From NCBI GenBank assembly GCA_029778535.1, contig JAKOQB010000041.1, positions 62,001-126,000 of the forward strand: a stretch of 64,000 nt of DNA, given 5' to 3'. Source of the DNA: Pseudomonadota bacterium (GTDB taxonomy: Bacteria > Pseudomonadota > Gammaproteobacteria > Burkholderiales > Burkholderiaceae_F). The notes under the pieces were generated by a model that was not told the DNA's origin, did not search any database, and saw only the letters and a program-made list of their open reading frames with translations. A program made the position numbers and the translations under genes. The number at the start of each line of letters is the position of its first letter. The first letter of the stretch is position 1. Below are positions 402-39,486 of this stretch, piece by piece.

Positions 402-1980
402 TCAGAACTCCACATAACCGTGCGCGATCGGCGCCGGTTCCCCGATCGTGAAGCCGCCGGCGCGGGCGGCCGCGTCGCACGCGAACGTGAGCTCAGCGGC
501 CGTGTCGGCGTAGATCCGGTACAGCGGCTCGCCGCGTTGCACCCGATCGCCCAGCTTCTTCAGCAGATCCACTCCCGCTCCCTTGACCTTCGGCGCGCCG
601 GCCAGCCGCGCGATGCGCGCCATTGTCTCGCAATCGATCGCGGTGACGTGACCTTCGGTCGGCGCTCGCACCGTGTGCGTCAGCCGCGCCAGCGGCGGCA
701 GCTCGGCGGCGCGGCCCTGCGCATCGACGATCGCGTTCATCTTTGCCAGCGCGCGGCCGGAGTCGAGGATGTCGCGCGCGACCGCGAAGCCGTCGCCGCC
801 GCGCACGTCGCGATCGAACTCGAGCACGCGGCCCGCCAGCCGCAGCGCTTTGTTGCGCAGGTCCATCGGCGCGTTCGGGTCGTTGTTGAGCACCTGCAGC
901 ACGTCGCGCGCCTCCAGCGCCGGGCCGATGCCGCGGCCGACCGGCTGGCGGCCATCGGTGATCACCACGTCGAGCATCATGCCGACGTGCCGCGCCACGT
1001 ACTCGAACAGTTTCTTCAGCCGCTGCGCGTCGTCCATGTGCCGCACCTTGGCGGTCGGGCCGAGCGGAATGTCGAGCACGAGGTGCGTCGACCCGGCGGC
1101 GATCTTCTTGCTCAGGATCGACGCCACCATCTGGCCGGGCGAGTCGATCGACAGCGGCCGCTCGACCGAGATCAGCACGTCGTCGGCCGGCGACAGCGCG
1201 GCGCGCCCGCCCCACGCCAGGCAGCCGCGGTGCGCGCGCACGATCTCGCGCATTCGCTCGAACGGCAGGTCGACGCGCGCCAGACACTCCATCGTGTCGG
1301 CGGTGCCGGCGGGCGAGGTGATCGCGCGGCTGGAGGTCTTGGGGATCAGCATGCCGTGCGCAGCGACGATCGGCACCACCAGCATCGAGGTGCGGTTGCC
1401 GGGCAGCCCGCCGATGCAGTGCTTGTCGACCACGGGCTTTTCGTCCCAGTCGAGCTTGCGGCCGACCTCGACCATTGCTTCGGTCAGGTACAGCACCTCG
1501 TCACGGTCCAGCTCGAACTGGTTGGTCGCGACCACGAACGCCGCCAGCTCGATCTTCGAATAGCGGTGGCGCGCGATGTCGCGCACGATCGCGCCGAGCT
1601 CGTCGCGCGTCAGCCGCTCGCCGCCGATCTTGCGCTTCAGCGTCTGCATCGACGGCGGCACCTCGGCGTGCGCGATCGCCACCGGCGCGCCGTCCTCGAT
1701 GCCGAGGTCCGCGAACGCCTCCTCCGAGAGTCCCAGTTCACGTTCGCCAATCAGCCGCGCGTCGTCGACCACGTTGACAACCGCGAGGATCGAGCGGCCA
1801 TGGTCCGGCGTGGAGACTTCGACCTTCGACAGCGCCTGGAAGCCCTCGGCCCGATACACCGGGCAGTCGCGCCGCAGATACGCGACGTTCTCGCGGTAGG
1901 TGTCGATGCCCACGCGGCGCGCGATCAGCGTGGCGCGTTCGTTACCTTGCCGCGCGATGGGGGCGGAAGGTTCGAGGTAC

Positions 1981-2006
<26 letters not shown>
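402..2006 (-). CDS. Thymidine phosphorylase / AMP phosphorylase family protein
   Basis: Phosphorolysis of a nucleoside or nucleoside monophosphate to a free base plus a (phospho)ribose 1-phosphate. The 534 residues are longer than classical DeoA (about 440). An N-terminal extension of about 100 residues matches the archaeal AMP phosphorylase / 'putative thymidine phosphorylase 2' branch. Family motifs are visible: [15 protein letters not shown], then [20 protein letters not shown], the phosphate/substrate-binding signature. The start shown is an ATG 26 bases inside the upstream metallo-hydrolase gene; a second in-frame ATG at 1991-1989 also overlaps it. It sits between a beta-CASP nuclease and a PRPP synthetase, so an AMP-phosphorylase-like salvage role is as plausible as a thymidine role. 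Substrate cannot be read from sequence. Confidence 0.85.
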
Positions 2007-4388
<2,382 letters not shown>

Positions 4389-4550: not shown

Positions 4551-5264
4551 TCAGTTCGTCAACAGCAACCGTGCACCGGTGCGGGCGCGGACCCGGATCA
4601 ACGACGTCATCGCGGCGCGAAACGCGCGCGCGAGGCGGGCGAGCGCCAATGCATCGGCCGGGTGTCGCAGCAGTGCGGCGCACAGCGCGCCGGCGCGCGG
4701 CCGGCCGAACTCGTCCAGCGTGCTCGGCAGCCACGGCGGCAGGAGGATTCGGCTGTCATCGGCGACCGCGCGCACGGCGAGAAACGGCGCACCGCATTCG
4801 CGCGCCACGCGGCCCAGCGCCGCGCTTTCCATATCGGCGGCGATCGCGCCGTGGCGTTGTGTGAGGTGCTGCTTCTGCGCGGAATCGACCAGCACCTCGC
4901 CGGTCTCGGCGAGCGGCGCGCGATGAACCTCGATGTCGTGTTGCAAGCCGCGGCATACGCGGTCGTGCCAGGCGGAGTCGGCGGAAAAGACGGTTTCATC
5001 CGCGGCGACGACCGTGGCGGGAACAACCACGCTGCCGGGACGCAGCGCCGGATCGAGCGCGGCCGCGCAGCCCCAACTGAGCAATGCGGTCGCACCGTGC
5101 TCGATCAACTGCCTTCCGGCCGGACGCGCGCGCGCCGGACCGATTCCGGCGAGTACCAGCAGCACGCGATCGTCGATTTCGGTAACGACGCCTTGTTCGA
5201 TGGTCCGCTCGCTCAGGCACGCCAGCTCGGCGTGCATTGCGACGGCAATGCCCAGGACGCTCAC
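4551..5264 (-). CDS. hpnG: Hopanoid-associated phosphorylase / nucleosidase HpnG
   Basis: In hopanoid side-chain synthesis HpnG cleaves adenine from adenosylhopane to give ribosyl- or phosphoribosylhopane. The 237-residue protein belongs to the PNP/MTAN nucleosidase family: a start like VSVLGIAVAMHAELACL, a glycine-rich LSWGCAAALDPALRPG region, and IAADMESAALGRVA, the purine/ribose-binding ME signature. I use the GTG at 5264, which overlaps the stop of the cyclase gene by 4 bases (GTGA). The longer open frame (to 5486) runs antisense to coding sequence. Translational coupling to the cyclase fixes its role in the hopanoid pathway. No hpnH (adenosylhopane synthase) is in this window. Confidence 0.85.
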   Translation of the reverse strand: MSVLGIAVAMHAELACLSERTIEQGVVTEIDDRVLLVLAGIGPARARPAGRQLIEHGATALLSWGCAAALDPALRPGSVVVPATVVAADETVFSADSAWHDRVCRGLQHDIEVHRAPLAETGEVLVDSAQKQHLTQRHGAIAADMESAALGRVARECGAPFLAVRAVADDSRILLPPWLPSTLDEFGRPRAGALCAALLRHPADALALARLARAFRAAMTSLIRVRARTGARLLLTN

Positions 5265-8200
5265 TGCGTGCCAACGATCTTTCGATAGCGGCCCAGGGCC
5301 CAGAGCGGAAAGTACTTGTCGTAGCCGTGATATTTCAGATAGAACACCCGCGGAAACCCGGGCGCCGTGAACCAAGGGCCGGACCACGATCCATCGGCAC
5401 CCTGGGTTTTCATCAGATATTCCGCGCCGCGTGCAAGGTGCGGGCCGTCCGTTTCGCCCGCCGCCATCAATCCCAGCATCGCCCATGCGGTCTGAAACGC
5501 CGTGCTTTCCCGCCCGGTTCCGGCGGTCTCGGGCCGGGCATAGCTGTCGTTGTCCTCACCCCAGCCGCCGTCCGGCCGCTGCATCTGCTTGAGCCACTCG
5601 GCCGCGCGTCGCACCGCCGGGTCCGACGACGGGATGCCGACCTGCTCGAACGCGGCCAGCACCGACCAGGTGCCATAGATGTAGTTCGTGCCCCAGCGGC
5701 CGAACCAGGCGCCGGAGGGTTCCTGCTCGGCGCGCAGATAGCGCAGGCACGCGTCCAGCGCGCGCTCGCAGGCGGCGTCCTGTTCGCCCGCGCGCGCGAG
5801 CAGCACCGCACAGCGCGCGCTGACATCGGCGGTCGGCGGATCGAGCAATGCGCCGTGATCGGCGAACGGAATCGCGTTCAGGGCGTAATGCGTGTTGTCG
5901 GCATCGAAGGCGCCGAAGCCGCCGTTGCGCGACTGCATGCCGCAGATCCACTGGACCGCGCGCCGGATCGATCCGGCGTATTTCGCCTGTCCCGATGCCA
6001 GCATCGCCCAACCGACCGCGCCGGTGTCGTCGATGTCCGGGTAATGGTCGTTCCGAAACTGAAACGGCCAGCCGCCGCCGGCCAGACGCGGGCGCTCCTC
6101 GCGCCAATCACCGGGCTGGTCCAGCAATTGTCGCGCCTGCAGCCAGTCGAGCGCGCGACCGATACTCTGCTCGGCCGGCGCCGCTTCCTGCAGCGCCAGG
6201 CATGCAAGCGCGGTGTCCCAAACCGGGGATTCGCAGGGCTGGCAGTAGGCGCGGTGCTCGTTCACCACGAGCAGCCGGTCGATCGCCTCGCGCGCAGTCT
6301 TGCGCAGCGGATGATCGGCCGGATAGCCGAGGCAATCGAGCGCCTCGTACGCGTTGACCATCGCCGGGAAGATCGCGCCCAGGCCGCCGCTGCCGTTCAG
6401 CCGCTCGACGAACCAGCGCTCGGCCCGCTGCAATCCGAGCCGGCGCAGCCAGCCCGGAATGAACGATTCGACCCGGTGCCCGATGCGGTCGATCATCAGG
6501 AACACCCAGTTCAGCCGCGAGCGCACCGGAAAATAGTTGCGTTCGATTTCCGGCGGCGTGACGAACAGCTCGCGCACATGCACGTCGCGCGGATTGCGTG
6601 CGCGCGGCTTCAGCGTGCACAGAACGGTCAGCGGCACCAGCACCGTGCGCGACCAGTACGAAATCTTGCTCAGGTGAAACGGCGACCAGCGCGGCAGCAG
6701 CAGGATTTCCGACGGGATGAAAGGTACCGCGCGCCAGGGCACCTCGCCGAACAGCGCCAGCGCGAACCGCGTGAACACGTTGGCGCGCGCCGCGCCGCCC
6801 ATCGAAAGAATCAGCTCGCGCGCGCGCCGCATGTGCGCGGCTTCGGTGTCGTCGCCCGCCAGCTTCAACGCGAAGTAGGCCTTGACCGAGCAGCTCACGT
6901 CGGCCGCGCCGCCGTAATACAGCGGCCAGCCGCCGTGCGCGCCCTGGCGCTCGCGCAGATACACCGCGATCTTCGCCTGCAGGACCGGATCGATCTCGTC
7001 CATGTAGTGCATCATCAGCACGTACTCGGCCGGGATCGTGCAGTCGGCCTCCAGTTCGAAGCACCAGTAGCCGTCGGCATGCTGGCGCGCGAGCAAAGAC
7101 CGCCGCGCGCGCGCGATCGCCTCGTCGAGCTGCCGCGCCCTTTCGGGAGAAACCTCCTGCCGCTCGGGCCGCAGCACGTGCGCCTGCGGCGGCGTGAGGA
7201 GCGTGTCGGCCGGTACCGACGGCAGCCCCGACCCGGCCAGCCGGAACAGCAGTTGCAATGCCGGATCGTATCCGGCCGCCATCCGGCTCAACACGACGGT
7301 GGCCCTGACGCTGTGGCGTGAAATCTTGACCTGGTCGCCGCGGCTGAAGTCCGGGCGCCGGTGGATCTTGCGCAGCGTGAGCACTGCCATGCCGAGCGCC
7401 CACAGGCAGAAGTTGCGGATGCCCGTCTCCCGCGCGGGGATCAGCAACGTGTAGCGCAACGCGTTTTCCAGATGCCCATGCGCGATCGCGACGAGGCGCG
7501 CCAGTCCGTGCTCGAAGTCCTCGCCGTACACGCCTGGCGCAAGCCGCTCGAGGTCGACCGCCGTCGTGGCGAACTGGTCGCGCGGCAGCCAGCAGAACCC
7601 GCGCGCACGGTCCTCCCAGATGTCCTTCAGGATATTGGTCATCTGCAGGCCCTGACCGAAGGAAACCGCCAGACGCATCAAAGTGTCGCGCTTCGCCGCG
7701 ATGGCCGGGGAATACTCGCAGAACAGCCGCGTGAGCATTTCGCCGACCACGCCCGCCACGTGATAGCAGTAGCGTCCGAGTTCGGCGAGGTCGTCCAGCC
7801 CGCGCGCGGAACCGCGTTGCTGAAAATGCACCATGCCTCGTCCCATCGTGCTGACGCAGGTGCGCAGCGCCTCCTGCTGCGACGCTGTGAACCGGTGCGT
7901 GATGCCGACCACGCGCGCGGTGTCGCGGACCAGTGCCAGGTCGGTAACGCTGGTGCGCGCCGACAGGCGTTGCGCCAGGCGGTCGGCGAAGTGTTCCGCG
8001 GACTCGTGCCCGCTGATGACGCCGACGAAACGCTCGCACAGGTCGCGCTTCGCGGCGAGATCCAGCTCGGGCTCATCCTCGATCGTGTCGACGATCCGGC
8101 ACAGTAGGTACGCGTTGGCCACGACCCGCGACAGTTCGGGCGGCAGCACCGGTATGGTCAGCGCGAACGTGCGCGACACGCTCTGCAGCATGCACGCCTG

Positions 8201-8347
8201 GAATTCATCGTCGCTGAGTCCGGTCTGCCGCGCCGCCGCGGCAGCGGTGGGACTGAGTGCGGTTTGTACGAGCACTTCAGGGTTCCGTGGATCGTGAGGA
8301 TCGGGCCGTGCTGCGTTCGCTGTCCTCACCGCCCCCACCTCGATCAC
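5261..8347 (-). CDS. Squalene synthase fused to squalene-hopene cyclase
   Basis: One uninterrupted frame of 1028 codons covers two consecutive steps. Residues about 45-350 form a trans-isoprenyl diphosphate synthase of the squalene-synthase type: SVSRTFALTIPVLP, first Asp-rich motif DTIED (87-91), YCYHVAGVVGEML (about 193-205) and second motif DIWED (242-246). About 50 residues of linker follow. Residues about 400-1020 form a squalene-hopene cyclase: DGYWCFELEADCTIPAEY, several QW-type repeats, and the catalytic DIDDT at 771-775 (followed by Gly, where Ala is usual). Together it could turn two farnesyl diphosphates into hopene. Start uncertain: ATG at 8347, or GTG at 8275, which removes 24 residues of no recognisable fold. 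It overlaps hpnG by 4 bp. An assembly artefact is unlikely, because the frame and both domains are intact. Confidence 0.9.
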   Translation of the reverse strand: MIEVGAVRTANAARPDPHDPRNPEVLVQTALSPTAAAAARQTGLSDDEFQACMLQSVSRTFALTIPVLPPELSRVVANAYLLCRIVDTIEDEPELDLAAKRDLCERFVGVISGHESAEHFADRLAQRLSARTSVTDLALVRDTARVVGITHRFTASQQEALRTCVSTMGRGMVHFQQRGSARGLDDLAELGRYCYHVAGVVGEMLTRLFCEYSPAIAAKRDTLMRLAVSFGQGLQMTNILKDIWEDRARGFCWLPRDQFATTAVDLERLAPGVYGEDFEHGLARLVAIAHGHLENALRYTLLIPARETGIRNFCLWALGMAVLTLRKIHRRPDFSRGDQVKISRHSVRATVVLSRMAAGYDPALQLLFRLAGSGLPSVPADTLLTPPQAHVLRPERQEVSPERARQLDEAIARARRSLLARQHADGYWCFELEADCTIPAEYVLMMHYMDEIDPVLQAKIAVYLRERQGAHGGWPLYYGGAADVSCSVKAYFALKLAGDDTEAAHMRRARELILSMGGAARANVFTRFALALFGEVPWRAVPFIPSEILLLPRWSPFHLSKISYWSRTVLVPLTVLCTLKPRARNPRDVHVRELFVTPPEIERNYFPVRSRLNWVFLMIDRIGHRVESFIPGWLRRLGLQRAERWFVERLNGSGGLGAIFPAMVNAYEALDCLGYPADHPLRKTAREAIDRLLVVNEHRAYCQPCESPVWDTALACLALQEAAPAEQSIGRALDWLQARQLLDQPGDWREERPRLAGGGWPFQFRNDHYPDIDDTGAVGWAMLASGQAKYAGSIRRAVQWICGMQSRNGGFGAFDADNTHYALNAIPFADHGALLDPPTADVSARCAVLLARAGEQDAACERALDACLRYLRAEQEPSGAWFGRWGTNYIYGTWSVLAAFEQVGIPSSDPAVRRAAEWLKQMQRPDGGWGEDNDSYARPETAGTGRESTAFQTAWAMLGLMAAGETDGPHLARGAEYLMKTQGADGSWSGPWFTAPGFPRVFYLKYHGYDKYFPLWALGRYRKIVGTQ

Positions 8348-8692: not shown

Positions 8693-10222
8693 ATGTCGCA
8701 CGAGTTTTCCCCGGACGCCCGCAGCGCGCTGTTCCGCCACGTCAGCGCGGACAAGGCGGCGCTATACCGCGCGGTGATGGAAGCGTTCGCCGCCGCCAAG
8801 CGCCAGTTCCGGTTGCACCTGCGGCCCGACGAGGTGTACGCCCTGGCGCAGTGGGAAGGAGCGCCGCCGGCGGCGGAGGAAGTGCAGCAGGCGCTCGCGC
8901 AGCTCGTTGCGTGGGGCAATCTGCGCGCGCAACCGGACACCGCGCGCGTGTCGACGCTGGAGGATTTTTATCGCGCGCGCTTTCTGTACAGCCTGAGCGC
9001 CGGCGGCGAGGCGGTGGAAAGCGCGCTGGAGACCTTTCACAAGGCGCTCGGTCAGCGCGGCGAGCTGCAGTCGGTGGCGCTGGAGGATTTGGCGCAACGC
9101 CTGGCGGCCTTGCGTGCACTCGCCGCCGAGCCGCAGCTCGATGCCGGCAAGGCGCACGGCCTGCTGCGCGATCTGGTGCACGTCTTCAGCGGCCTGGCGG
9201 ACAACGCGCAGGCATTCATGGCGAGTTTGGCGCGCGCGATCGACCTGCAGCGCACCGACGCCGCGCTGCTGATGGCCTACAAGACGCGGCTGATCGATTA
9301 CCTGGAGCGCTTCATCGGCGAACTGGTCACGCGCTCGGCGCGCATCAGTGAGTCGATTGCCGCGCTTGCCGCGCACGCCGAGCGGCTGCTCGCCGCGGTG
9401 GCAGAGCGCGAGGCGCGCGATGCCGCGCCCGATGGCGCGAGCACCGAGGACAGCGCCGTCGTCGAGCGTCTGCGCGCGTGGCGCGAGCGCTGGGCGGGGC
9501 TGGCGGGCTGGTTCGTCGGAACCGATCGGGCGCCGGCGCAGTCCGAACTCCTGCGCAGCCGCGCACGCGGCGCGATTCCGCAATTGCTCGCCGCGATCGC
9601 CGCGCTGAACGAGCGGCGCAGCGGTCGCAGCGATCGCTCGGCCGATTTCCGCGTGCTTGCGCGCTGGTTCGCCGACACCGCCTGCGACGCCGAGGCATCG
9701 CGCCTTGCGCGCGCCGCGTTCGCGTTGCACCCGGCGCGGCATCTGAGCCTGGCGGTGGCCGAGCGCGACGTGCCGGCGACGACTCCGTGGGCTGACGCGC
9801 CTGCCGTCGAAGTGAGCGCGCGGCTGCGCGAACGCGGCGTGCTCGCGCCGCGCGGCACCCCGCCGCGCGTGCGCGACCGCTCGCGCGAACGCGCGCTGCT
9901 CGCCGAGCGCATGCGCCAGGAGCACGCGCAGGTGCAGGCGGCGCGCGCGAAGCTGGTCGGCCGCGGCGCGGCGCGGCTGTCGCAGCTCGCGCAGCTCGAC
10001 CGCCACGAGTTCCGCCTGTTTCTGTCGTTGCTCGGCGAAGCGCTGGCCGCGCAGACGGATCCGGAACGGCCGGTGGAGCGCACCACGGCCGACGGGCTGC
10101 TGCGCGTGCGGCTGGAGCCGCTCGGCGCGGACACGCACGCGCACATCGACAGCGAGCTCGGCCGCTTTGCCGGTCGCGACCACGCGATCCGCATCGGCGC
10201 GGTGGCGGACGAGGCGCGATGA
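8693..10222 (+). CDS. jetA: Wadjet type II anti-plasmid protein JetA (TIGR02677 family)
   Basis: First gene of a four-gene defence operon. In Wadjet complexes JetA is the kleisin-like subunit that bridges the SMC-like JetC ATPase. The 509-residue protein opens with the family's N-terminal winged-helix pattern (ALFRHVSADKAALYRAVMEAF) and continues with LVAWGNLRAQPDTARVSTLE and FYRARFLYSLS, typical of TIGR02677. The rest is largely helical and Arg/Ala-rich. Its end overlaps jetB by 4 bases (ATGA). Length and gene order match type II Wadjet. I see no frameshift. Confidence 0.88.
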   Translation: MSHEFSPDARSALFRHVSADKAALYRAVMEAFAAAKRQFRLHLRPDEVYALAQWEGAPPAAEEVQQALAQLVAWGNLRAQPDTARVSTLEDFYRARFLYSLSAGGEAVESALETFHKALGQRGELQSVALEDLAQRLAALRALAAEPQLDAGKAHGLLRDLVHVFSGLADNAQAFMASLARAIDLQRTDAALLMAYKTRLIDYLERFIGELVTRSARISESIAALAAHAERLLAAVAEREARDAAPDGASTEDSAVVERLRAWRERWAGLAGWFVGTDRAPAQSELLRSRARGAIPQLLAAIAALNERRSGRSDRSADFRVLARWFADTACDAEASRLARAAFALHPARHLSLAVAERDVPATTPWADAPAVEVSARLRERGVLAPRGTPPRVRDRSRERALLAERMRQEHAQVQAARAKLVGRGAARLSQLAQLDRHEFRLFLSLLGEALAAQTDPERPVERTTADGLLRVRLEPLGADTHAHIDSELGRFAGRDHAIRIGAVADEAR

Positions 10223-11433
10223 ACGACATCTTCGCGCGCCAGCAGGAGCAGGAGCGCGAGCAGGCGTTGCGCGCGCTGCTGATGCGGCCGCTGCTGACCG
10301 CCGCCGATCCCGCGTTCGCCCTGGTGCGCCGGCACGCGGAGCATCTGCGCGCGTGGCTGGCGCGCGAGGCCGGTTGGGCGCTGAAGGTCGAGCGCGATTG
10401 CGCGCGGCTGTACAAGACCGCGGCGGATCTTGAGGACCACACGCGCGGCGCGCCCGGCTTCGACCGCCGCCGCTACGTGCTGCTGTGTCTGGTGTGCGCG
10501 GTGCTCGAGCGCGCCGACCCGCAGATCACGCTGAAGACGCTGGGCGAACGCGTGCTGGAGCTGGCGGCCGACCCCGAGCTCGAGGCGCGCGGCTTCGCGT
10601 TTCGCCTGACCTCGATGCACGAGCGCCGCGAGCTGGTCGACGTCTGTCGCTACCTGCTCGCGCTCGGTGTGCTGGCGCGCGTTGCCGGCGAGGAGGAGGG
10701 CTACGTACAGCAGGGCGGCGGCGACGCGCTGTACGACGTCGCGCGGCGCGCGCTGGCGGCGCTGCTTGCCTGCCCGCGCGGCCCGTCGACGCTCGCGCCG
10801 GACGAAGTGCGCGACCCGCCGAGCCGTCTTGCGGCGCTGACCGACGAATACCGCGCCAACGACGCCGAGGGCCGCCGCACCGCGATCCGCCATCGCCTGG
10901 CGCGGCGCCTGCTCGATGACCCGGTCGTCTACCACGATGAACTCTCGCCCGAGGAGCGCGACTACTTCGCCAATCAGCGCGGCGCGATGGCGCAGCGGCT
11001 GCGCGCCGCCACCGGGCTGGAGGCGGAGCTGCGCGCCGAAGGCACGGCGCTGATCGACCCGCATGGGGAGCTGACCGATCGCGCGCTGCCGGCCGAAGGC
11101 ACGCAGGCACACGTGACGCTGCTGGTCGCGCAGTTTCTCGCCGCGCATGCGCGCGAGACCCGGGTAAGCGCGGAAAGCGAGATCGCGGACTTCGTGCGCG
11201 CCGCCGCCCGGCGCTACGGCCGCTACTGGCGCAAGAGCGCGCGCGAGCCGGGCGCGGAAAGCGAGCTGGCGCGCGCCGCGCTCGCGCAGCTCGCGGCGCT
11301 GCGGCTCGTGCGTGAGACCGACCGCGGCGTCGAGGCGCGCCCGGCGCTGCTGCGCTTCGCCTTCAGGGAGGCGCGCACGATCGCCGCGAGCGGCTCGCTG
11401 GCGCTCGACCTTCAGTCCGCTTGCGCTGCATGA
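10219..11433 (+). CDS. jetB: Wadjet type II protein JetB (TIGR02678 family)
   Basis: Second subunit of the Wadjet complex; JetB is a small winged-helix (MukE/KITE-like) partner that dimerises and binds JetA and JetC. The 404 residues include the family pattern RRYVLLCLVCAVLERADPQI, then TLGERVLELAADPELE and an acidic, Arg-rich C-terminal half, as expected for TIGR02678. It starts at an ATG overlapping the jetA stop and ends at a TGA overlapping the jetC ATG, so translation of A, B and C is probably coupled to fix stoichiometry. The assignment rests on motifs and position. Confidence 0.87.
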   Translation: MNDIFARQQEQEREQALRALLMRPLLTAADPAFALVRRHAEHLRAWLAREAGWALKVERDCARLYKTAADLEDHTRGAPGFDRRRYVLLCLVCAVLERADPQITLKTLGERVLELAADPELEARGFAFRLTSMHERRELVDVCRYLLALGVLARVAGEEEGYVQQGGGDALYDVARRALAALLACPRGPSTLAPDEVRDPPSRLAALTDEYRANDAEGRRTAIRHRLARRLLDDPVVYHDELSPEERDYFANQRGAMAQRLRAATGLEAELRAEGTALIDPHGELTDRALPAEGTQAHVTLLVAQFLAAHARETRVSAESEIADFVRAAARRYGRYWRKSAREPGAESELARAALAQLAALRLVRETDRGVEARPALLRFAFREARTIAASGSLALDLQSACAA

Positions 11434-14400
11434 CCGCAGTGGCCGAGCTCGCCGCGTTGCCCGAGCCCGCCAAGCGGCGCTGGCAGCCGCTGCGCGTCGG
11501 ACTGGTCGAGCTTTATCACTACGACTGCGAGGAGTTCTGGTTTCACGACGGGCACCTGCTCTTGCGCGGCAACAACGGCACCGGCAAGTCCAAGGTGTTG
11601 TCGCTGACGCTGCCGTTCCTGCTCGACGGGTATCTCGCGCCGACGCGCGTGGAGCCGGACGGCGACCGCGCCAAGCGCATGGAGTGGAATCTGCTGATGG
11701 GCCGTTACGAGCGGCGCACCGGTTATGCGTGGATCGAGTTCGGCCGCCGCGATGAATCAGGCGCGCCGAGCTACCTGACGCTCGGTTGCGGCATGAGTGC
11801 GGTGGCCGGCCGCGTCCGAATCGACCACTGGCACTTCATCACCGAGCAGCGCATCGGTCAGGACCTGTGGCTGCTGGCACCCGAGCGCAGCGTGCTCGGT
11901 CGCGAGCGACTGGCCGAGCAGCTCGCCGACCGCGGCCAGCTCTTCGACACCGTGACCGACTACCGCCGTGCGGTCGACGAGCGCCTGTTCCGTCTGGGGG
12001 AAGCGCGCTATCGCGCGCTGATGGACACGCTGATCCAGTTGCGCCAACCGCAGCTTTCGCGCCAGCCCGACGAGCACAAGCTGTCGGACGCGCTGACCGA
12101 AGCGCTGGCGCCGCTGCCAGAGGCGGCGCTCGCCGACGTGGCCGAGGCAATGACGCAACTGGACGAGTACCGCGGCGAACTGGATGAGATCGAAGCGCTG
12201 CGCGCGGCGATCGCGCAGTTCGAGCGCCGCTACCGCAGCTATGCGCGCGTGCTGGCGCGGCGGCAGGCGCGCGAGTTGCGGCAGGTGCAGACCGAGTTCG
12301 ACAACGCGCGCCGCGCGCTCAATGACGCGCGGCACGAGCTCGACGGTGCTGCCGCCACGTTGAAAGAGTGCGATGTTCGCCGCGCAGCGTGCGCGCGCCA
12401 GCTCGCGCGCGATCGCGCGGCGCTGGACGAGCTGCGCCGCGATCCGGTGATGCGCGATGCGCAGCGGCTGCAGGAGGCCGAGCGGCTGGCCGCGCAAGGC
12501 GCGCACGACGCCGAACGCGCGCGCCAGCGCGCGGCCGATGCCGAGCAGGCGCGGCGCGCGGAGCACGAACGCGCCGAACGGCGGCGCCGCGACGCGCAGC
12601 AGGCGCAGCAGGCGCGCGCGCAGGCGCACACGGAAGCGCAATCGGCCGCGGCCGAAATCGGTGCGGCGGCGGAACACGAACGCGCCTGCGCTTCGGTGGC
12701 GGCGATGCAGACCGCGTTGCGGGCGATCGTGAAAGCGCGGCGCGAGCAGGTAGCGCAGGTCAGGCAGCGCTTGCGTGCGGTCGAACAGGCCGCGGCTGCG
12801 CGCGACCGCGCGGCGGACAACCGCAATCGCTGCGCCGAGGCCGACGAACTGGCCGCGCAACGCGCAGCGCAGGCCGAGGCGGCGCTCGGACGCGCCGGTC
12901 GCGCGCTGTTGCAAAGTTGGCGCGTCTTCGTCGACTCGCTGCGGCAGCTCGCGCTTGCCGATGCCGGCGCCGCGCTGGAATCGGCCATGAGCTGGATCGA
13001 AACGCTGGCCGGCGACAACCCGCTGCACGCGGCGATCATCGACGCACAGCAGGCGGCGATCGCCCGTCTGGCCGAAGAGGAAGCGCACCTCAAGCAGCGG
13101 CGCGCGGCGCTGCGCGCCGAAGCCGAGCAGTTGTCCGCCGAGCGTGCGCTCCTGCTGCAAGGTCAGGATCCGGTGCCGCCCGCGCCGTATACGCGCGCGC
13201 CGCAGGCGCGCGCAGGCCGGCCCGGTGCGCCGCTGTGGCAGCTCGTCGAATTCGCGCCGCAGGTCGATGACGCGCAGCGCGCGGGCCTGGAGGCGGCGCT
13301 CGAAGCGGCGGGGCTGCTCGACGCCTGGGTGACGCCCGAAGGCGTGGCGCTCGAGGCGGACGCCGCCGATGTGCTGCTGATCCCGCGTGCCGAGTACGCA
13401 GCATCCCTCGCCGGCTGGCTGGTGCCGGCCTCGCAACCGGCGGTCGGGCGCGAGCGCATCGCCCGGCTGCTGGCCTCGGTGGCCTGCGCCGAGGACGATC
13501 CGGCGCAGGTCGAAGCCTGGGTGTCGCCGCAAGGACGGTTCCGCCTCGGGCCCAAGCGCGGCGCCTGGCAGAAACCGGCCGCGCAATACATCGGTTCAGC
13601 CGCACGCGAACAGGCGCGCCGCCGGCGCGTCGCCGAGATCGAAGCCCGCCTGCGCGAGCTGGCCGCCGAGGCCGCCGAAGCCGGACGGCGGCTCGACGCC
13701 GCGGCCCGGCGCCGCAGCGAAGTCAACGCCGAATGCGCGCGCGCGCCCGCCGACGGCGCGCTGCGCGACGCGCACGCGGCCGCTGCCGCCGCGCACGCGC
13801 AGCGGCGCGACACGGCCGAACAAGTGCGCCTAGCCGAAGCCGACCGGGAGGCCGCCGAAGCGCGCTGGCGGCAGGCGCGCGACGCGCTGCTGCGCGATGC
13901 GGACGATCTGCGCCTGCCTGCCGAGGCGCAGGCGCTCGTTGACTTCGACACGCGGCTCGCCGAGTACCGCGAGGCTGCGGACCGTCTGCTGCAGGCGGCG
14001 AGCGACGAAGCGCGCTGCGCGCGCGAACTGGCCGAGCAGCAGCAGCGCGCCGGCGTCGCCGCGGCCGCTGCGGGCGATCTTGGCGCCGAGTCCGCGCGGT
14101 TGCAGCTTGCCGCCGACGCCGTGGCCGCGCGCTACGCGCTGCTCAAGGAAACGATCGGTGCCGCGGTCGAAACCCTGCAGGCGCGGCTGCGCGCGACCGA
14201 GGCGGCGGTGACAGAGGGCGAACGGGGTCTCGAAGAACGCGACGGCGAACTGCGCGCGGCGGTCGAGCGGCGCGCCCGCTGCGAACAGAAGTGCACCGAT
14301 GCGGAAACGACGCTCACCGAGCGGCAGAGTCGTCGCGAAAGCGCCGTCGAGCGGTTCCAGGGCTTCGCTCGCACCGGCCTGCTCGACGCCGCTGCGGCGG

Positions 14401-15500
14401 AACTCGCGCTGCCCGACGTCGCTCCGGCGTGGACCGTCGACCCGGCGCTGCAGCTCGCCCGCCGCGTCGAACAGGCGCTCGCCAATGTCGCCGCCGACGA
14501 CGCCGAACGCGACCGGCTGCAAAGCGAAGTGCAGCGCGACTTCAACCTGCTGCTGCAGGCGATGACCGCGCACAACCAGCAGGCGTATGCGGAGCCGAGC
14601 GACTTCGGCTTCGTCGTGCAGATCGTCTACCGCAATCGGCGCGACCGGCCCGACGCGCTGGCAGCGCGACTGGCGGACGAGATCACGCAGCGGCGCGAAA
14701 TCCTCACCGCGCGCGAGCGCGAGGTGATCGAAAACCATCTGCAGGCCGAAGTCGCCGCCGAGCTGCAGCGGCTGTTGCGCGAAGCCGACGAGCGGCTGCA
14801 GCGGATCAACGACGAACTCGGCCGCCGCGCCACGTCCACCGGCGTCAAGTTCAAGCTCGAGTGGCAGCCGCTGCCCGAGGGCGAAGACGGCGCGCCGGCG
14901 GGTCTCGCCGCGGTGCGCGCGCGGCTGCTGAATCGCGCGCCCGAGGCCTGGTCCGCCGAGGACCGGCGCGCGGTCGGCGACTTTCTGCACAACCGCATCC
15001 GGCAGGAACGCGCGCGTGAAGAAAGCGGCACGCTGCTCGACCACCTGGCGCGCGCGCTCGACTATCGGCGCTGGCACCGTTTCCGCGTTAAGCGCTTTCA
15101 GGACGGCGCGTGGCGCCCGCTGTCCGGCCCGGCCTCCAGCGGCGAACGCGCACTGGGTCTCACCGTGCCGCTGTTCGCCGCCGCCAGCAGCCACTATGCG
15201 AGCGCCGCCTCGCCGTTGGCGCCGCGCCTGGTGTTGCTCGACGAAGCGTTCGCCGGCATCGACGTGGACGCGCGCGCGCATTGCATGGCGCTGATCCGCG
15301 AGTTCGACCTCGACTTCGTGATGACCAGCGAAAGCGAGTGGGGTTGCTACGCGGAGCTGCCGGCGCTGGCGATCTGCAACCTGGTGCGGCGCGAAGGCGT
15401 GGACGCGGTGTACGTGTCGCGCTGGCGCTGGGATGGCGCGTGCCGGCGCGAGCTCACTGACCCGACGCGGCGCTTCCCCGAGGCACTGCTGTCCGCATGA
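11430..15500 (+). CDS. jetC: Wadjet type II SMC-like ATPase JetC (TIGR02680 family)
   Basis: The motor of Wadjet: an SMC/MukB-like ATPase thought to extrude DNA loops on plasmids so that JetD can cleave circular DNA. The 1356 residues show Walker A GNNGTGKS at 47-54 and long Ala/Arg/Glu-rich coiled-coil arms (roughly 260-540 and 740-1010) with a hinge-like globular part between them. Near the C terminus are the signature-like GPASSGERALGL and Walker B RLVLLDEAFAGID (catalytic region around Asp1271). I chose the ATG at 11430 because it overlaps the jetB TGA by 4 bases; an in-frame TTG lies 9 bases upstream. All ATPase motifs are present, so it looks functional. Confidence 0.9.
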   Translation: MTAVAELAALPEPAKRRWQPLRVGLVELYHYDCEEFWFHDGHLLLRGNNGTGKSKVLSLTLPFLLDGYLAPTRVEPDGDRAKRMEWNLLMGRYERRTGYAWIEFGRRDESGAPSYLTLGCGMSAVAGRVRIDHWHFITEQRIGQDLWLLAPERSVLGRERLAEQLADRGQLFDTVTDYRRAVDERLFRLGEARYRALMDTLIQLRQPQLSRQPDEHKLSDALTEALAPLPEAALADVAEAMTQLDEYRGELDEIEALRAAIAQFERRYRSYARVLARRQARELRQVQTEFDNARRALNDARHELDGAAATLKECDVRRAACARQLARDRAALDELRRDPVMRDAQRLQEAERLAAQGAHDAERARQRAADAEQARRAEHERAERRRRDAQQAQQARAQAHTEAQSAAAEIGAAAEHERACASVAAMQTALRAIVKARREQVAQVRQRLRAVEQAAAARDRAADNRNRCAEADELAAQRAAQAEAALGRAGRALLQSWRVFVDSLRQLALADAGAALESAMSWIETLAGDNPLHAAIIDAQQAAIARLAEEEAHLKQRRAALRAEAEQLSAERALLLQGQDPVPPAPYTRAPQARAGRPGAPLWQLVEFAPQVDDAQRAGLEAALEAAGLLDAWVTPEGVALEADAADVLLIPRAEYAASLAGWLVPASQPAVGRERIARLLASVACAEDDPAQVEAWVSPQGRFRLGPKRGAWQKPAAQYIGSAAREQARRRRVAEIEARLRELAAEAAEAGRRLDAAARRRSEVNAECARAPADGALRDAHAAAAAAHAQRRDTAEQVRLAEADREAAEARWRQARDALLRDADDLRLPAEAQALVDFDTRLAEYREAADRLLQAASDEARCARELAEQQQRAGVAAAAAGDLGAESARLQLAADAVAARYALLKETIGAAVETLQARLRATEAAVTEGERGLEERDGELRAAVERRARCEQKCTDAETTLTERQSRRESAVERFQGFARTGLLDAAAAELALPDVAPAWTVDPALQLARRVEQALANVAADDAERDRLQSEVQRDFNLLLQAMTAHNQQAYAEPSDFGFVVQIVYRNRRDRPDALAARLADEITQRREILTAREREVIENHLQAEVAAELQRLLREADERLQRINDELGRRATSTGVKFKLEWQPLPEGEDGAPAGLAAVRARLLNRAPEAWSAEDRRAVGDFLHNRIRQERAREESGTLLDHLARALDYRRWHRFRVKRFQDGAWRPLSGPASSGERALGLTVPLFAAASSHYASAASPLAPRLVLLDEAFAGIDVDARAHCMALIREFDLDFVMTSESEWGCYAELPALAICNLVRREGVDAVYVSRWRWDGACRRELTDPTRRFPEALLSA

Positions 15501-16696
15501 AGGACGAGGCGGGCGAGCGGCTGCAACGTCTGCTCGGCGGCGACGCATTGGCGGCATTGCGCGCGCGGCTGCGCCGCCGCTACGAGCGCGGGCAAACGAG
15601 CGACGCGTTCGTGCTGCAAAGTCTGTCGACCGATGAGCGACGCGCGCTGGAGGGGCTGCTGGGCCGCCCCCTGCGGCAGGCCGCGTCGATGCGGCTCGCG
15701 ATCGACGAACTGGATCGGGCGCTGGCGCGCGCCGGACTGGCCACATCGCTGCGCGCCGCGCTGGAGCGGCTGGACGGCCCGATACGCGAACTGGCGGCCG
15801 AACGCGCCGAGCGCGAAGCGGCATGGCAGGCGGTGTTCACCGAATGCAGCCACGCGCGGCTGCGGCAGCTCGTCGCGCGGTCCGCGGCGCGCGGACTGGT
15901 CAAACGGCTTGCCGCCGGCGATGCGGCGCGCGGCCTCGAACTGCTGCGCGCCGCGCAGGCCGTGCTCGCCAGGCTGCCGCAGCCGGGAGTGCCGCTGGCG
16001 CGGCTGGCGGCCGAGGTGCTCGGCGACGCACACGCCCTCGACGCCGGGCGGCCCGTCGGCACGCTGGTGCTGGCGGCACTGCGCGAGGCCGATGCCGGCG
16101 AACGACCGCGTGAGCGCTGGGCGCGCCGCGGCGTACTCGTCAACGAACTGGTCGCGCCGGTGCTGGTGCTCAACCTGCCGGCGCAGGCCGACACGCCCGG
16201 CGGTGCGCTCGCCGCGCTGGCGGCCGCGCGCGGCGAGCCGCTGCACCTGTCGCTGCGCCTGCTGTTGCGCGCACCGCCGCGCTGGGGCGTTGCCGAGCGC
16301 TGCGTGTTCGTGTGCGAAAACCCGAGCGTCGTGTCGCTGGCGGCCGATCATGTCGGCGCGCGCTGCGCCCCGCTCGTGTGCACCGACGGGATGCCGGCGG
16401 CCGCGCAGCGCACGTTGCTGGCGCAGCTTGCCGCTGCCGGCGCGCGGCTCGCGTATCACGGTGACTTCGACTGGCCGGGCATCGCGATCGGCAATTTCGT
16501 GCTGCGCTCGTTCGGCGCGCGGCCGTGGCGCTTCGGCGCCGCCGATTACGTCGCGCCGCGCGGCCGCCGGCTCGCAGGCGCGCCGGTGGTGGCGCGCTGG
16601 GATGCGGCGCTTTCTGAGAAGCTGTCCGCGTCCGGTTTCGCGCTGGAAGAAGAGGCGGTGGTCGAGTCGCTGCTGGCGGATCTGGCGGCAGGGTGA
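15497..16696 (+). CDS. jetD: Wadjet type II nuclease JetD (TIGR02679 family, Toprim-like)
   Basis: Effector of the system; JetD carries a topoisomerase VI/Spo11-like Toprim fold and nicks or cuts the extruded plasmid. The 399-residue protein has an N-terminal region typical of TIGR02679 (GRPLRQAASMRLAIDELDRAL). The C-terminal Toprim part shows the acidic metal-binding pattern: VCENPSVVSLAA (Glu) and AYHGDFDWPGIAIGN (DxD). Overlapping ATGA with jetC completes an unbroken A-B-C-D operon. Catalytic acids are present, so the whole system appears intact. Confidence 0.88.
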   Translation: MKDEAGERLQRLLGGDALAALRARLRRRYERGQTSDAFVLQSLSTDERRALEGLLGRPLRQAASMRLAIDELDRALARAGLATSLRAALERLDGPIRELAAERAEREAAWQAVFTECSHARLRQLVARSAARGLVKRLAAGDAARGLELLRAAQAVLARLPQPGVPLARLAAEVLGDAHALDAGRPVGTLVLAALREADAGERPRERWARRGVLVNELVAPVLVLNLPAQADTPGGALAALAAARGEPLHLSLRLLLRAPPRWGVAERCVFVCENPSVVSLAADHVGARCAPLVCTDGMPAAAQRTLLAQLAAAGARLAYHGDFDWPGIAIGNFVLRSFGARPWRFGAADYVAPRGRRLAGAPVVARWDAALSEKLSASGFALEEEAVVESLLADLAAG

Positions 16697-32681: not shown

Positions 32682-35600
32682 TCACCGATCACGGCTCACG
32701 GCCCTGCCCAGCTTCCACTGCATAACGAGCGCGTAGATCGCGGGGATGACCGCGAGCGTCAAAACGGTCGACGACACCATGCCGCCGACCATGGGCGCGG
32801 CGATTCGCCGCATCACCTCGCTGCCGGCGCCGGTTGACCACATGATCGGAAGCAGCCCGCCCATGATCGCCACCACGGTCATCATCTTTGGCCGCACGCG
32901 TTCGACCGCGCCTTCCATCACGGCCTGGTACAGGTCGGCGACGGTTGCGTCCTTGCGCTCGTATTGGCGTCTCTCGCGGATCTCGCGCCACGCACTGTCG
33001 AGATAGATCAGCATCACGACGCCGGTCTCCGCCGCCACGCCGGCGAGCGCAATGAAGCCGACCGCCACCGCGACGCTCAGGTTGTAGCCGAGCCACCACA
33101 GCAGCCAGATGCCGCCGAGCAGCGCGAACGGCACCGACGCCATCACGATCAGCGTGTCGGTCACGCGGCGGAAGTTCAGGTACAGCAGCACGAAGATGAT
33201 GCCGAGCGTCAGCGGCAACACGATCTTCAGTTTCTCGAGCGCGCGCTGCAGGTACTCGAACTGGCCACTCCACGTGATGTACGTGCCCGGCGGCAGGTTG
33301 ACGTTGTCGCGCACCGCCTGCTGCGCGTCGCGCACATAGCCGCCGATGTCGCGGCCGCGGATGTCGACGAAGATGTACGCCGACAGCAGCGCGTTCTCGG
33401 TGCGGATCTGCGGCGGGCCCTGCGTCAACTGCACGCGCGCGACCTGGCCGAGCGGAATCGTCGCCGGCGGCCGACCCTGCTCCGCCATCAGCGGCACCAG
33501 CACCTCGCGCTCGATCCGCTGCGGATCGGCGCGCGCATCGCGCGGGTAGCGGACGATCACGCCGAAGCGGTTGCGCCCCTCGACGGTGGTCGTGACCATC
33601 TCGCCGCCGAGCGCGGTGGCGACCACGTCCTGCAGCGCGCCGATCGACAGACCATAGCGCGCCAGTTGCGCGCGGTCGGGCACGACGTCGAGGTAGTAGC
33701 CGCCGGTCAGCCGCTCCGCGTACGCGCTGCTGGTGCCCGGCACGTTGCGCACCACGGTCTCGATCTCGCGCGCCACGCGCTCCATCTCCTTCAGGTCCGA
33801 GCCGAACACCTTGATGCCGATCGGCGTGCGGATCCCGGTCGACAGCATGTCGATGCGCGCGCGGATCGGCATCGTCCACGAGTTGGCCACGCCCGGAAAC
33901 TGCAATGCGCGGTCCATCTCGGCGATCAGCTTGTCGATGTTCATGCCGGGCCGCCACTGCGACTCGGTCTTCAGGTTGATCACCGTCTCGAACATCTCCA
34001 TCGGCGCGGGGTCGGTGGCGGTCGCCGCGCGGCCGGCCTTGCCGAACACCGATTCCACCTCGGGGAAGCTCATGATGATCTTGTTCTGCGTCTGCACGAG
34101 TTCCGCCGCCTTGGTCACCGACATGCCGGGCAGCGAGGTCGGCATGTAGAACAGCGTCCCCTCGTTCAGCGTCGGCATGAATTCGGTGCCGAGCCTCAGC
34201 GCCGGCCAGATCGTCGCGGCGCCGACCGCCACCGACAGCGCGATCGTCGCCAGCTTGTTGCGCAGCACCCAGGCGATCACCGGCCGGTACAGCGCGATCA
34301 GCACGCGGTTCACCGGGTTCTTCGACTCCGGCAGGATGCGGCCGCGGATCAGCCAGATCATCAGCAGCGGCACCAGCGTGACCGAGAGCAACGCCGCGCC
34401 CGCCATCGCGAACGTCTTGGTGTACGCGAGCGGCGCGAACAGTCGCCCCTCCTGCGCCTCGAGCGTGAACACCGGCAGGAAGCTCACGGTGATGATCAAG
34501 AGCGAAAAGAACAGCGCCGGCCCCACTTCCTTGCCCGCATCGATGATCGCCAGCGTGCGGTCGCCTTCAGCCGGCAACCGTTCGAGATGCTTGTGCGCGT
34601 TCTCGATCATCACGATCGCCGCGTCGACCATCGCGCCGATCGCAATTGCAATGCCGCCCAGGCTCATGATGTTCGAGTTGATGCCAAGCAGCCGCATGCA
34701 GATGAACGCGATCAGCACGCCGATCGGCAGCATCACGATCGCCACCAGCGCGCTGCGCACGTGCAGCAGGAACAGCACGCACACCAGCGCCACGATCACC
34801 GACTCCTCGAGCAGCGTCGATTTCAACGTGCCGATCGCGCGCTTGATCAGGTCCGAGCGGTCGTACACGGCCCGGATCGTCACGCCGCCGGGCAGCCCGG
34901 CCTTCAGTTCCTCGATCCGCTGCTTGACGTGGTCGATCACGGACAGGGCGTTCTCGCCGAAGCGCGCCACCGCGATGCCCGACACCACTTCGCCTTCGCC
35001 GTTCAGTTCCGTGACGCCGCGCCGCTCGTCCGGACCGAGCTCGACGCGCGCGAGGTCGCGCACGCGCACGGCGGTGCCTTTCTCCGCGCGCACGACCAGG
35101 TCCTCGATGTCGGCCGCGCTGCGCAGATACCCGCGCCCGCGCACCATGTACTCGGTCTCTGCGAGTTCCACCACGCGCCCGCCGACATCGCGGTTCGAGT
35201 CGCGAATCACCTGTGCGACCGTCATCAGCGGGATGTTGTAGGCGCGCAGCTTCACGGGATCGACGATCACCTGGTACTGCTGCACGAAGCCGCCGACCGA
35301 CGCAACCTCGGCGACGCCCTGCGCCTTGGTGAGCTGATAGCGCAGGTACCAGTCCTGCAGCGTGCGCAGTTCCGCCAGCGTGCGGTCCTTCGCCTGCACT
35401 GCATACTGGTACACCCAGCCGACACCGGTCGCGTCCGGCCCGATCTGCGCACTGACGCCCGACGGCAGCCGCGATGCGGCGAAGTTCAGGTACTCCAGGA
35501 CGCGCGAGCGCGCCCAGTAGATGTCGGTGCCGTCCTCGAAGATGACGTAGACGAACGACACGCCGAAGAACGAAAAGCCGCGCACGACCTTCGACTTCGG

Positions 35601-35828
35601 CACCGACAGCATCGCGGTGGTCAGCGGATAGGTGACCTGGTCCTCGACCACCTGCGGCGCCTGCCCCGGATACTCGGTGTAGACGATCACCTGCACGTCC
35701 GACAGGTCCGGCAGCGCATCGAGCGGCGTGCGCACGATCGCCAGCACGCCCGCGAACACGATCGCCAGCGTGGCGAGCGCGATCAGGAACGGATTGCGCG
35801 CCGACCAGGCGATCAGGCGTTCAAGCAT
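32682..35828 (-). CDS. cusA: CusA/CzcA-family heavy-metal RND efflux pump
   Basis: Inner-membrane proton-driven exporter that, with CusB and CusC, moves Cu(I)/Ag(I) from periplasm or cytoplasm out of the cell. The 1048 residues have twelve transmembrane segments and two large periplasmic loops. Diagnostic features: FEDGTDIYWARSRVLEYL near residue 100; the porter-domain stretch LPGMSVTKAAELVQTQNK, with the metal-relay methionine (equivalent to M573 of E. coli CusA) in the PGMS context; further methionines in PMEMFETVINLK. The helix-4 proton-relay segment (IAIGAMVDAAIVMIENAHK) is intact. The Met set favours a monovalent-metal (Cus) rather than Czc type. Preceded by an inverted repeat in the gap after cusB. 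Confidence 0.92.
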   Translation of the reverse strand: MLERLIAWSARNPFLIALATLAIVFAGVLAIVRTPLDALPDLSDVQVIVYTEYPGQAPQVVEDQVTYPLTTAMLSVPKSKVVRGFSFFGVSFVYVIFEDGTDIYWARSRVLEYLNFAASRLPSGVSAQIGPDATGVGWVYQYAVQAKDRTLAELRTLQDWYLRYQLTKAQGVAEVASVGGFVQQYQVIVDPVKLRAYNIPLMTVAQVIRDSNRDVGGRVVELAETEYMVRGRGYLRSAADIEDLVVRAEKGTAVRVRDLARVELGPDERRGVTELNGEGEVVSGIAVARFGENALSVIDHVKQRIEELKAGLPGGVTIRAVYDRSDLIKRAIGTLKSTLLEESVIVALVCVLFLLHVRSALVAIVMLPIGVLIAFICMRLLGINSNIMSLGGIAIAIGAMVDAAIVMIENAHKHLERLPAEGDRTLAIIDAGKEVGPALFFSLLIITVSFLPVFTLEAQEGRLFAPLAYTKTFAMAGAALLSVTLVPLLMIWLIRGRILPESKNPVNRVLIALYRPVIAWVLRNKLATIALSVAVGAATIWPALRLGTEFMPTLNEGTLFYMPTSLPGMSVTKAAELVQTQNKIIMSFPEVESVFGKAGRAATATDPAPMEMFETVINLKTESQWRPGMNIDKLIAEMDRALQFPGVANSWTMPIRARIDMLSTGIRTPIGIKVFGSDLKEMERVAREIETVVRNVPGTSSAYAERLTGGYYLDVVPDRAQLARYGLSIGALQDVVATALGGEMVTTTVEGRNRFGVIVRYPRDARADPQRIEREVLVPLMAEQGRPPATIPLGQVARVQLTQGPPQIRTENALLSAYIFVDIRGRDIGGYVRDAQQAVRDNVNLPPGTYITWSGQFEYLQRALEKLKIVLPLTLGIIFVLLYLNFRRVTDTLIVMASVPFALLGGIWLLWWLGYNLSVAVAVGFIALAGVAAETGVVMLIYLDSAWREIRERRQYERKDATVADLYQAVMEGAVERVRPKMMTVVAIMGGLLPIMWSTGAGSEVMRRIAAPMVGGMVSSTVLTLAVIPAIYALVMQWKLGRAVSRDR

Positions 35829-35851
35829 GCGCGGGACTCCAGGTCAGGTTC

Positions 35852-35924
35852 ACCACAGAGGCACAGAGGCACAGAGGCACATAGAAGAACCTCTTCTTTC
35901 CCTGTGGCTCTGTGCCTCTGTGGT
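35852..35924. repeat. Inverted repeat with 8-bp tandem units, cusB-cusA gap
   Basis: Perfect 17-bp arms at 35852-35868 and 35908-35924 (ACCACAGAGGCACAGAG and its complement). The left side also carries GAGGCACA units in tandem (about 35858-35880). Transcribed, this is a stable hairpin between cusB and cusA and could set their relative mRNA levels. Such CACAGAGGCACAGAG elements recur as scattered repeats in proteobacteria. Confidence 0.85.
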
Positions 35925-35940
35925 TCAAAGCGCCCTTCGT

Positions 35941-37488: not shown

Positions 37489-38798
37489 AACTCCTCCCCC
37501 ACCAGCCGCTCGATCTCGGCCTGCTTCATGCGCGCCTCGGCGTGCGTGCGGATCAGCGTCAGCCGCGCCTGGCGAATCTGCCGCTGCGCCTCGAGCACGG
37601 TGGTGAAATCGACCTTGCCGGTTTCGTAGCCGGCGAGCGCGGCCTGCCACGTCACATCGGCCTGCGGCAACAGGCTCGTGCGCGTCAACGTTTCGACGCG
37701 ATGCGCGGCCCGGAAGCCGGCCACGCTTTCGCCGAGCTGCGCCAGCAGGTCGTTCACCTGCGCCTCGCGCCGCGCCTGCGCGGCGGCGAGCATCGACAGC
37801 GCCTCGCGTTCGTCGGCGCGGCGTGCACCCTGCTGCAGCGGGATGTTGATCTCGAACATCAACTCCCACTCGTTGATGCGGTTGCGCATCTGGATCGGCG
37901 CCACGCCGAACGTGAACTCCGGATAGCGGTTGGCGAACACCGCATCCTTGCTTTTCTCGGCGGCGCGGATGCGCGCGGCCTCGGCTTTCAATTGCGGGTT
38001 GCGCGCCAGCACGCGCTCGCGCAGCGCTGCCAGGTCGACGCGCGCGAGCGGCGGCAGCGCGCCGTCGCCGCGCGGTTCCGCCAGCGGCGCGTCGGACGCG
38101 CGCGCCAGCAGGCCGTTGATACGGGCGCGCGTGGCGGCGAGATCGGCTTCCAGCAGCGCGATCTCGCTCATCATCGACGTGCGCTCGACCTGCGCGCGCA
38201 GCGCATCCTGCTGCGGCGCCAGCCCGCCCGCGTAGCGCACCTGCGCCACCGACTCGAGCCGGTCCACCAGTTCGAGGATCGCGCGCGACTGCGCGAGGCT
38301 GTCGGTCGTCTGCTGGTAGCGCGCGTAGGCGGACTTGATCCGCAACGCAAGTTCCGTCCACGTGGCATCGGCGCGGTACGTTGCCTCATCGGCCGCGGCC
38401 TGCGCGGCGTCGCGCTTCGCGTCGCGCTTGCCCCACGACGGGAACGTCTGGCGGAACTGGTAACGCGTGCTGCCCACGCGCCCCGGCAGCAGGTTCGGGC
38501 TCGATGCGCCGCCGTTGTCGATGTCGCGCAGCTCGACCTGGAACATCGGATCGGGCAGCGCGCCCGCGGGCAGCACCCGCTGCGCGGCGGCGTCGGCTTC
38601 AAAGCGCATCGAGCGCAGTTCCGGCTGGTGCGCGGCCGCGTAGTCGAGTAGCCCTTGCAGTGTGGCACCGAGATCGGCCGGCGCCTGCGCGAACGCCGCG
38701 CCGCACGCGAGCGCTGCGCTGACGGCGAACAGCGCGACGCGCGATTTCAGGACAGCCCGCCTTGACGGCGGTGTCGGTCCCGCCCCCGATTCAAACAC
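37485..38798 (-). CDS. cusC: CusC-like outer-membrane efflux channel (TolC family)
   Basis: Outer-membrane exit duct of the copper/silver pump; about 437 residues. A signal peptide (SRVALFAVSAALACGAAFA) is followed by two helical-hairpin repeats typical of the OEP family (SMRFEADAAAQRVLPAGALP; PNLLPGRVGSTRYQFRQTFP). There is no lipobox Cys, unlike E. coli CusC. Start uncertain: no ATG precedes the signal peptide; a GTG at 38798 and a CTG at 38750 are in frame, and an upstream repeat element occupies the 5' end. The stop overlaps cusB by 4 bases, so expression is coupled. Confidence 0.85.
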   Translation of the reverse strand: MFESGAGPTPPSRRAVLKSRVALFAVSAALACGAAFAQAPADLGATLQGLLDYAAAHQPELRSMRFEADAAAQRVLPAGALPDPMFQVELRDIDNGGASSPNLLPGRVGSTRYQFRQTFPSWGKRDAKRDAAQAAADEATYRADATWTELALRIKSAYARYQQTTDSLAQSRAILELVDRLESVAQVRYAGGLAPQQDALRAQVERTSMMSEIALLEADLAATRARINGLLARASDAPLAEPRGDGALPPLARVDLAALRERVLARNPQLKAEAARIRAAEKSKDAVFANRYPEFTFGVAPIQMRNRINEWELMFEINIPLQQGARRADEREALSMLAAAQARREAQVNDLLAQLGESVAGFRAAHRVETLTRTSLLPQADVTWQAALAGYETGKVDFTTVLEAQRQIRQARLTLIRTHAEARMKQAEIERLVGEEL

Positions 38799-38892
38799 GC
38801 GGGGGCAGGCTCCAGCGGGAACCCGGCGACTTTCCGTCGCAAGGCACTGGATCCCCGCGGGAGCCTGCCCTCGACGGCGATCGGGGGCGGGG
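38778..38892. repeat. Nested inverted-repeat element before cusC
   Basis: Outer arms TCCCGCCCCCGAT (38778-38790) and ATCGGGGGCGGGG (38880-38892), with inner arms GGGGGCAGGCTCC (38801-38813) and GGAGCCTGCCC (38860-38870). About 115 bases of nested palindrome, MITE-like. It covers the probable promoter or leader of cusC and may have altered its start. Confidence 0.75.
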
Positions 38893-38932
38893 ATGAAATC
38901 CCACGTCAGTGCGCATGCCATCGATCACACCG

Positions 38933-39403: not shown

Positions 39404-39486
39404 TCGTTTCTCCTGTGCGACCGCGGCGGGTCGCGAATGTGAACTCGATCGACGTCACGCGGGCGTGCGGCCCGCGGCGAACGAGT

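Follow-up and report, generated by a model that had tools for sequence, protein, structure and literature searches.

A squalene synthase and a hopene cyclase in one frame

The window analysed here, a stretch of 64,000 nucleotides, carries on its minus strand a single frame that joins a squalene synthase to a squalene-hopene cyclase (sqs-shc fusion; Table 1). No stop interrupts the frame, whose product has 1028 amino acids; the actual start codon may lie downstream of the annotated GTG, because residues 1-40 are poorly modelled. A first-pass annotation had proposed both enzymes in one polypeptide and located the frame correctly, leaving out the strand, which is minus. The open 1028-codon frame, the Pfam domains of both enzymes and the intact motifs confirm that the fusion is real.

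Table 1 Features of the window. Residues are those of the fusion product.
Feature	Coordinates	Strand	Residues	Remarks
AMP/thymidine phosphorylase	402-2006	-		type named after archaea
beta-CASP nuclease	1981-3645	-		resembles archaeal aCPSF1
hpnG-like phosphorylase	4551-5249	-		next gene of operon; TIGR03468 183.7 bits (cut-off 187.1)
sqs-shc fusion ORF	5261-8347	-		1028 codons; GTG start at 8347, stop ending at 5261
SQHop_cyclase_C	5279-6229	-	707-1023	Pfam 426 bits
DIDDTG, catalytic acid motif	6020-6037	-	771-776	DIDDT at 771-775
SQHop_cyclase_N	6257-7117	-	411-697	Pfam 421 bits
Linker	7133-7213	-	about 379-405	~27 residues, ~11 predicted disordered
SQS_PSY, squalene synthase domain	7316-8185	-	55-344	Pfam 187 bits
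DIWED, second Asp-rich motif	7610-7624	-	242-246	
YCYHVAG	7751-7771	-	193-199	
DTIED, first Asp-rich motif	8075-8089	-	87-91	D, E, D invariant in 107 relatives
Wadjet type II set, complete	8693-16696	+		G+C 0.74 (0.69 in rest)
JetA2	8693-10222	+		
JetB2	10219-11433	+		
JetC2	11421-15500	+		
JetD2	15497-16696	+		
Copper efflux/detoxification block	32682-42237	-		
CusB-CusF fusion protein	35941-38361	-		within copper block

The cyclase part scores 826.6 bits with the squalene-hopene cyclase model TIGR01507, well above its curated equivalog cut-off of 431.1. The synthase part belongs to the PF00494 superfamily (187 bits; Pfam gathering score 26), with two Asp-rich motifs and an all-helical fold that runs on past SQS_PSY to about residue 378. 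Its best-scoring specific model is that of single-enzyme squalene synthases, TIGR01559, at 116 bits under a cut-off of 286.75; unfused bacterial relatives also stay below this cut-off (117-122 bits), which places this bacterial branch of synthases outside the reach of the model. The scores with HpnD (75 against 279 bits) and HpnC (54.5 against 250 bits) are likewise under the cut-offs.

Catalytic columns, DxDD included, are invariant across 107 relatives. The G that ends DIDDTG had been suspected of altering catalysis, a suspicion that the relatives dispel: this position varies among them (A in 62, S in 35, P in 6 and G in 4), next to an invariant DxDD. The fusion deviates at 1 of 84 near-invariant synthase columns and at 3 of 164 cyclase columns, within the range of its relatives, and thus gives no sign of decay. 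An AlphaFold2 model built from a 51-row alignment (mean pLDDT 87.7, pTM 0.65) has both domains well folded, with disorder at residues 1-18 and 30-40 and in the linker at 387-397 (pLDDT <50). In Foldseek comparisons, the alpha-alpha barrel of the cyclase domain matches 1sqc (TM 0.93, 39% identity), and the synthase domain matches human squalene synthase (TM about 0.77, normalised by target). With its linker disordered and a pTM of only 0.65, the model does not place the two active sites in a fixed relation to each other.

Integrity of the frame

The host genome is a single draft metagenome-assembled genome (MAG) of 240 contigs with an estimated contamination of 7.59%, and one wrong base in place of a stop codon would suffice to create such a frame. 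An assembly or consensus error could thus have deleted the stop of what are, in the real organism, adjacent separate genes like those of the nearest relative, G089, in which a TGATG stop/start overlap couples the two. We give this explanation little credence. The coding composition continues unbroken through the linker, third-position GC being 0.87 in the synthase, 0.86 in the linker and 0.86 in the cyclase, and the junction keeps no remnant of the TGATG site. Both alternative frames are free of stops around the junction, the next ones falling at residues 444 and 747; no single-base indel error would therefore restore two normal genes, which makes an indel artefact, too, unlikely. The same fused architecture is moreover stable in ten species of another family (f212), and its presence in 12 other genomes shows that the frame in this assembly is more than a chance reading.

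Distribution and repeated origin

Among 108 non-redundant loci with adjacent synthase and cyclase genes, the two are separate in 95 and fused in 13, the window included; the remaining fusions belong to ten f212 species and to two isolated species (G860 and G882) of a further gammaproteobacterial family, f232. The architecture is therefore not the one-off that it had seemed. Within f212, a gammaproteobacterial family represented by two genera, it is fixed, occurring in 10 of 10 searched species that have the cyclase, whereas congeners of the two fused f232 species keep separate genes, as does the nearest relative of the window, G089, of the same order (66% identity in the synthase and 71% in the cyclase). 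Recurrent as it is, the fusion is rare in surveys by cyclase domain: it was found in 1 of 35 cyclase-bearing genomes of the order sample (that of the window) and in 2 of 55 of the class sample (the window and one other), and no additional fusion appeared among 49 cyclase-bearing genomes of the phylum sample. The first-pass annotation had taken two separate proteins, or HpnCDE plus Shc, as the normal state; relatives have not HpnCDE plus Shc alone but very often a tandem single-enzyme squalene synthase gene beside shc.

Several candidate fusions were rejected. The long cyclase frames of G337, G680, G774, G092, G007 and G1193 either owe their length to spurious upstream extension in GC-rich DNA or have the synthase out of frame, and in Cupriavidus megaplasmid matches that span residues 186-1025 the cyclase frame is only about 669 amino acids long. 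Three more frames of the host genome (G000:C105 and C166; L005-L007) match the cyclase C-terminal domain weakly (27-36 bits) and are not canonical hopene cyclases. A different architecture, in which a UbiH-like FAD monooxygenase is fused to an oxidosqualene-cyclase-like domain, occurs in two gammaproteobacterial families (L194, 1591-5157, plus strand; L195, 301-4299, minus strand); with TIGR03463 the cyclase-like domain scores 733 and 680 bits (cut-off 851), and the two genes are possible squalene epoxidase-cyclase fusions.

In a tree of the two domains, the window pairs with unfused G089 (support 98-99) and the fused locus of G882 (L204) with unfused L202 (support 99), the f212 fusions form a clade of their own (support 100), and the fused locus of G860 (L206) lies near unfused L205. 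This tree demands four state changes, as does another built under a different model, and the AU test rejects a topology that constrains all fused rows together (p-AU 1.27e-34). A single ancestral fusion with later splits is thus ruled out; the fusion arose independently at least four times, in four lineages. The ancestral arrangement was an sqs-shc-hpnG operon in which the stop codon or codons between adjacent sqs and shc were lost. Both genes already lie in one frame in 36 of the 95 separate pairs; such pairs would fuse once they had lost the intervening stop codon or codons. In close pairs of f212 fusions, pN/pS is 0.05-0.16 for the domains and 0.34-0.71 for the linker, which points to strong purifying selection on the domains and a looser linker, the pattern expected of a spacer that is tolerated within a protein in use.

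Genomic context of the fusion

With few exceptions, whether the two genes are fused or separate, hpnG lies 3' of the cyclase, and it does so in every fused lineage. Elsewhere in the host genome, a remnant hpnCDE cluster (5573-7416 of L198, G000:C58) is flanked by radA and the trigger factor gene tig, a position shared with relatives G017 and G006; we take the neighbour to be radA from the conserved neighbouring frame and background knowledge. HpnD is intact and above its cut-off, HpnC has an internal deletion of about 70 residues, and of HpnE the first third is left, matching only residues 2-167 of the 482-residue frame of a relative. A complete HpnCDE pathway is therefore absent, HpnC and HpnE being deletion remnants; the fusion is the only complete squalene-to-hopene route seen in the host genome and, because these two are wrecked, probably the only one in the organism.

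HpnH was not found in the host genome (best score 28.6 bits) and is above cut-off in 13 of 13 comparison genomes. With HpnH unfound, hpnG looks orphaned; the host organism may make C30 hopanoids only, or the MAG may simply be missing HpnH. The HpnCDE remnants and the missing HpnH would also suit fusion by drift, the fused gene being a passenger of a pathway under dismantlement (hpnC, hpnE and hpnH gone). This seems improbable to us, given that the 1028-codon frame has stayed open with its near-invariant columns kept, that HpnH is not needed for C30 hopene or diplopterol, and that the fusion genomes of f212, G860 and G882 retain HpnH.

In G089, hpnH lies immediately upstream of the synthase gene and is divergent; the corresponding place in the window is occupied by the Wadjet jetABCD set. 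Further observations concern the rest of the window. The AMP/thymidine phosphorylase scores 615 bits with TIGR02645, above cut-off, and 503 bits with the AMP phosphorylase model TIGR03327 (cut-off 535), and it adjoins the beta-CASP nuclease (257 bits with the aCPSF1 model; cut-off 580). The copper block comprises an AcrB/CusA-type transporter, the CusB-CusF fusion protein, an outer membrane channel and a multicopper oxidase.

A putative bifunctional enzyme from farnesyl diphosphate to hopene

Taken together, the domains, motifs and folds, the operon ancestry and the repeated independent fusion make it likely that the protein is a genuine bifunctional enzyme leading from farnesyl diphosphate to hopene or hopanol, and it is from these that we infer both catalytic activities. 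The formation of squalene from two farnesyl diphosphates is the established chemistry of the synthase family. The N-terminal domain would thus turn two farnesyl diphosphates into presqualene diphosphate and, using NADPH, into squalene, which the DxDD motif of the C-terminal domain would protonate to set off polycyclisation to hopene or hopanol, a membrane lipid that resembles cholesterol. A gammaproteobacterial single-enzyme squalene synthase has been characterised (Ohtake 2014, as cited in PMC5462960).

The main biochemical rival to full synthesis from farnesyl diphosphate to squalene is a synthase domain that only converts presqualene diphosphate, supplied by a separate HpnD, to squalene, without carrying out both half-reactions. 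HpnD is indeed intact beside the remnants of HpnC and HpnE, a state paralleling the report on acidobacteria that have kept hpnD, lost hpnC and hpnE and possess a squalene synthase gene, for which the same division of labour was proposed (PMC5462960). Against this, the first half-reaction depends on the two Asp-rich motifs and on YxYxVAG, all of which are intact and invariant, and HpnD is perhaps retained for another role or at an early stage of decay; we consider dependence on HpnD quite unlikely.

How squalene, being insoluble in water, passes from synthase to cyclase is a natural question. One likely benefit would be the fixed 1:1 production of both enzymes. Squalene-hopene cyclases are monotopic membrane proteins. 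Joined to one of them, the synthase would be kept at the membrane, and a second likely benefit would be the local delivery of insoluble squalene. Strict channelling through a tunnel, direct passage from one active site to the next as initially suggested, is not implied; the predicted flexibility of the linker lends channelling no direct support and argues against a fixed tunnel. More tentatively, and with considerably less confidence than in bifunctionality itself, the fusions of at least four origins might form an undescribed, convergent class of bifunctional synthase-cyclases in which a soluble synthase is brought to a membrane cyclase and squalene passes on without equilibrating with the bilayer.

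The fusion might, on the other hand, serve co-expression only, if the polypeptide were cleaved at the linker or if an internal GTG start also yielded free cyclase. The linker is disordered and weakly constrained, and translation of a free cyclase could in principle begin within it, at the in-frame GTG of residue 391 (position 7177). The linkers of the other fusions, however, share no conserved start codon, and the recurrence of fusion suggests that the joined state brings some advantage or is at any rate tolerated. We regard co-expression alone as unlikely, though less so than dependence on HpnD.

With at least four independent origins and matched unfused sister genes, the natural fusions provide ready-made constructs for testing whether proximity matters, and they may serve as building blocks in producing triterpenes. 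Genes of this kind could receive a wrong name from searches in which squalene synthase and cyclase are expected to be separate proteins.

Comparison with known systems

A full-text literature search returned no description of a natural squalene synthase-hopene cyclase fusion, in agreement with the first-pass annotation, which knew of none; the search covered open-access papers only and is thus not proof of novelty. The closest known arrangement is the tandem sqs-shc(-hpnG) operon of gammaproteobacteria and Burkholderiales (for example, Methylocaldum sp. 14B, Methylotetracoccus oryzae and Dyella psychrodurans), which has the same domains, order and hpnG neighbour, with identities to the fusion of about 48-66% (synthase) and 50-71% (cyclase), but keeps a stop between its two genes where the fusion encodes one polypeptide. 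The HpnCDE plus Shc route of Zymomonas and Rhodopseudomonas likewise supplies squalene to the same cyclase, but by three enzymes via hydroxysqualene, and the synthase domain of the fusion is far under the HpnC and HpnD cut-offs.

Natural fusions of consecutive squalene-pathway enzymes include the fused HpnCD of subdivision-2 acidobacteria (PMC5462960), which, unlike the fusion described here, unites two proteins of the head-to-head synthase fold without a cyclase. Fungal chimeric prenyltransferase-terpene cyclases include the triterpene synthases TvTS and MpMS (PMC9177416). As proposed here, these are single proteins in which one domain builds the chain and another closes the rings, with a triterpene product, but they use a head-to-tail prenyltransferase and a class I cyclase, involve no squalene and have different folds. 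The fungal phytoene synthase/lycopene cyclases (carRP, carRA, crtYB and al-2) are also bifunctional (PMC3153474). They join a head-to-head prenyl synthase to a terpene cyclase of the same pathway, as in the fusion, and differ in their C40 carotenoid substrates, an unrelated cyclase family, the desaturation steps in between and their eukaryotic hosts. Their domain order is opposite to that of the sqs-shc fusion. The principle of fusing pathway neighbours thus has precedents, and it is the repeated origin of the sqs-shc fusion that is the interesting part.
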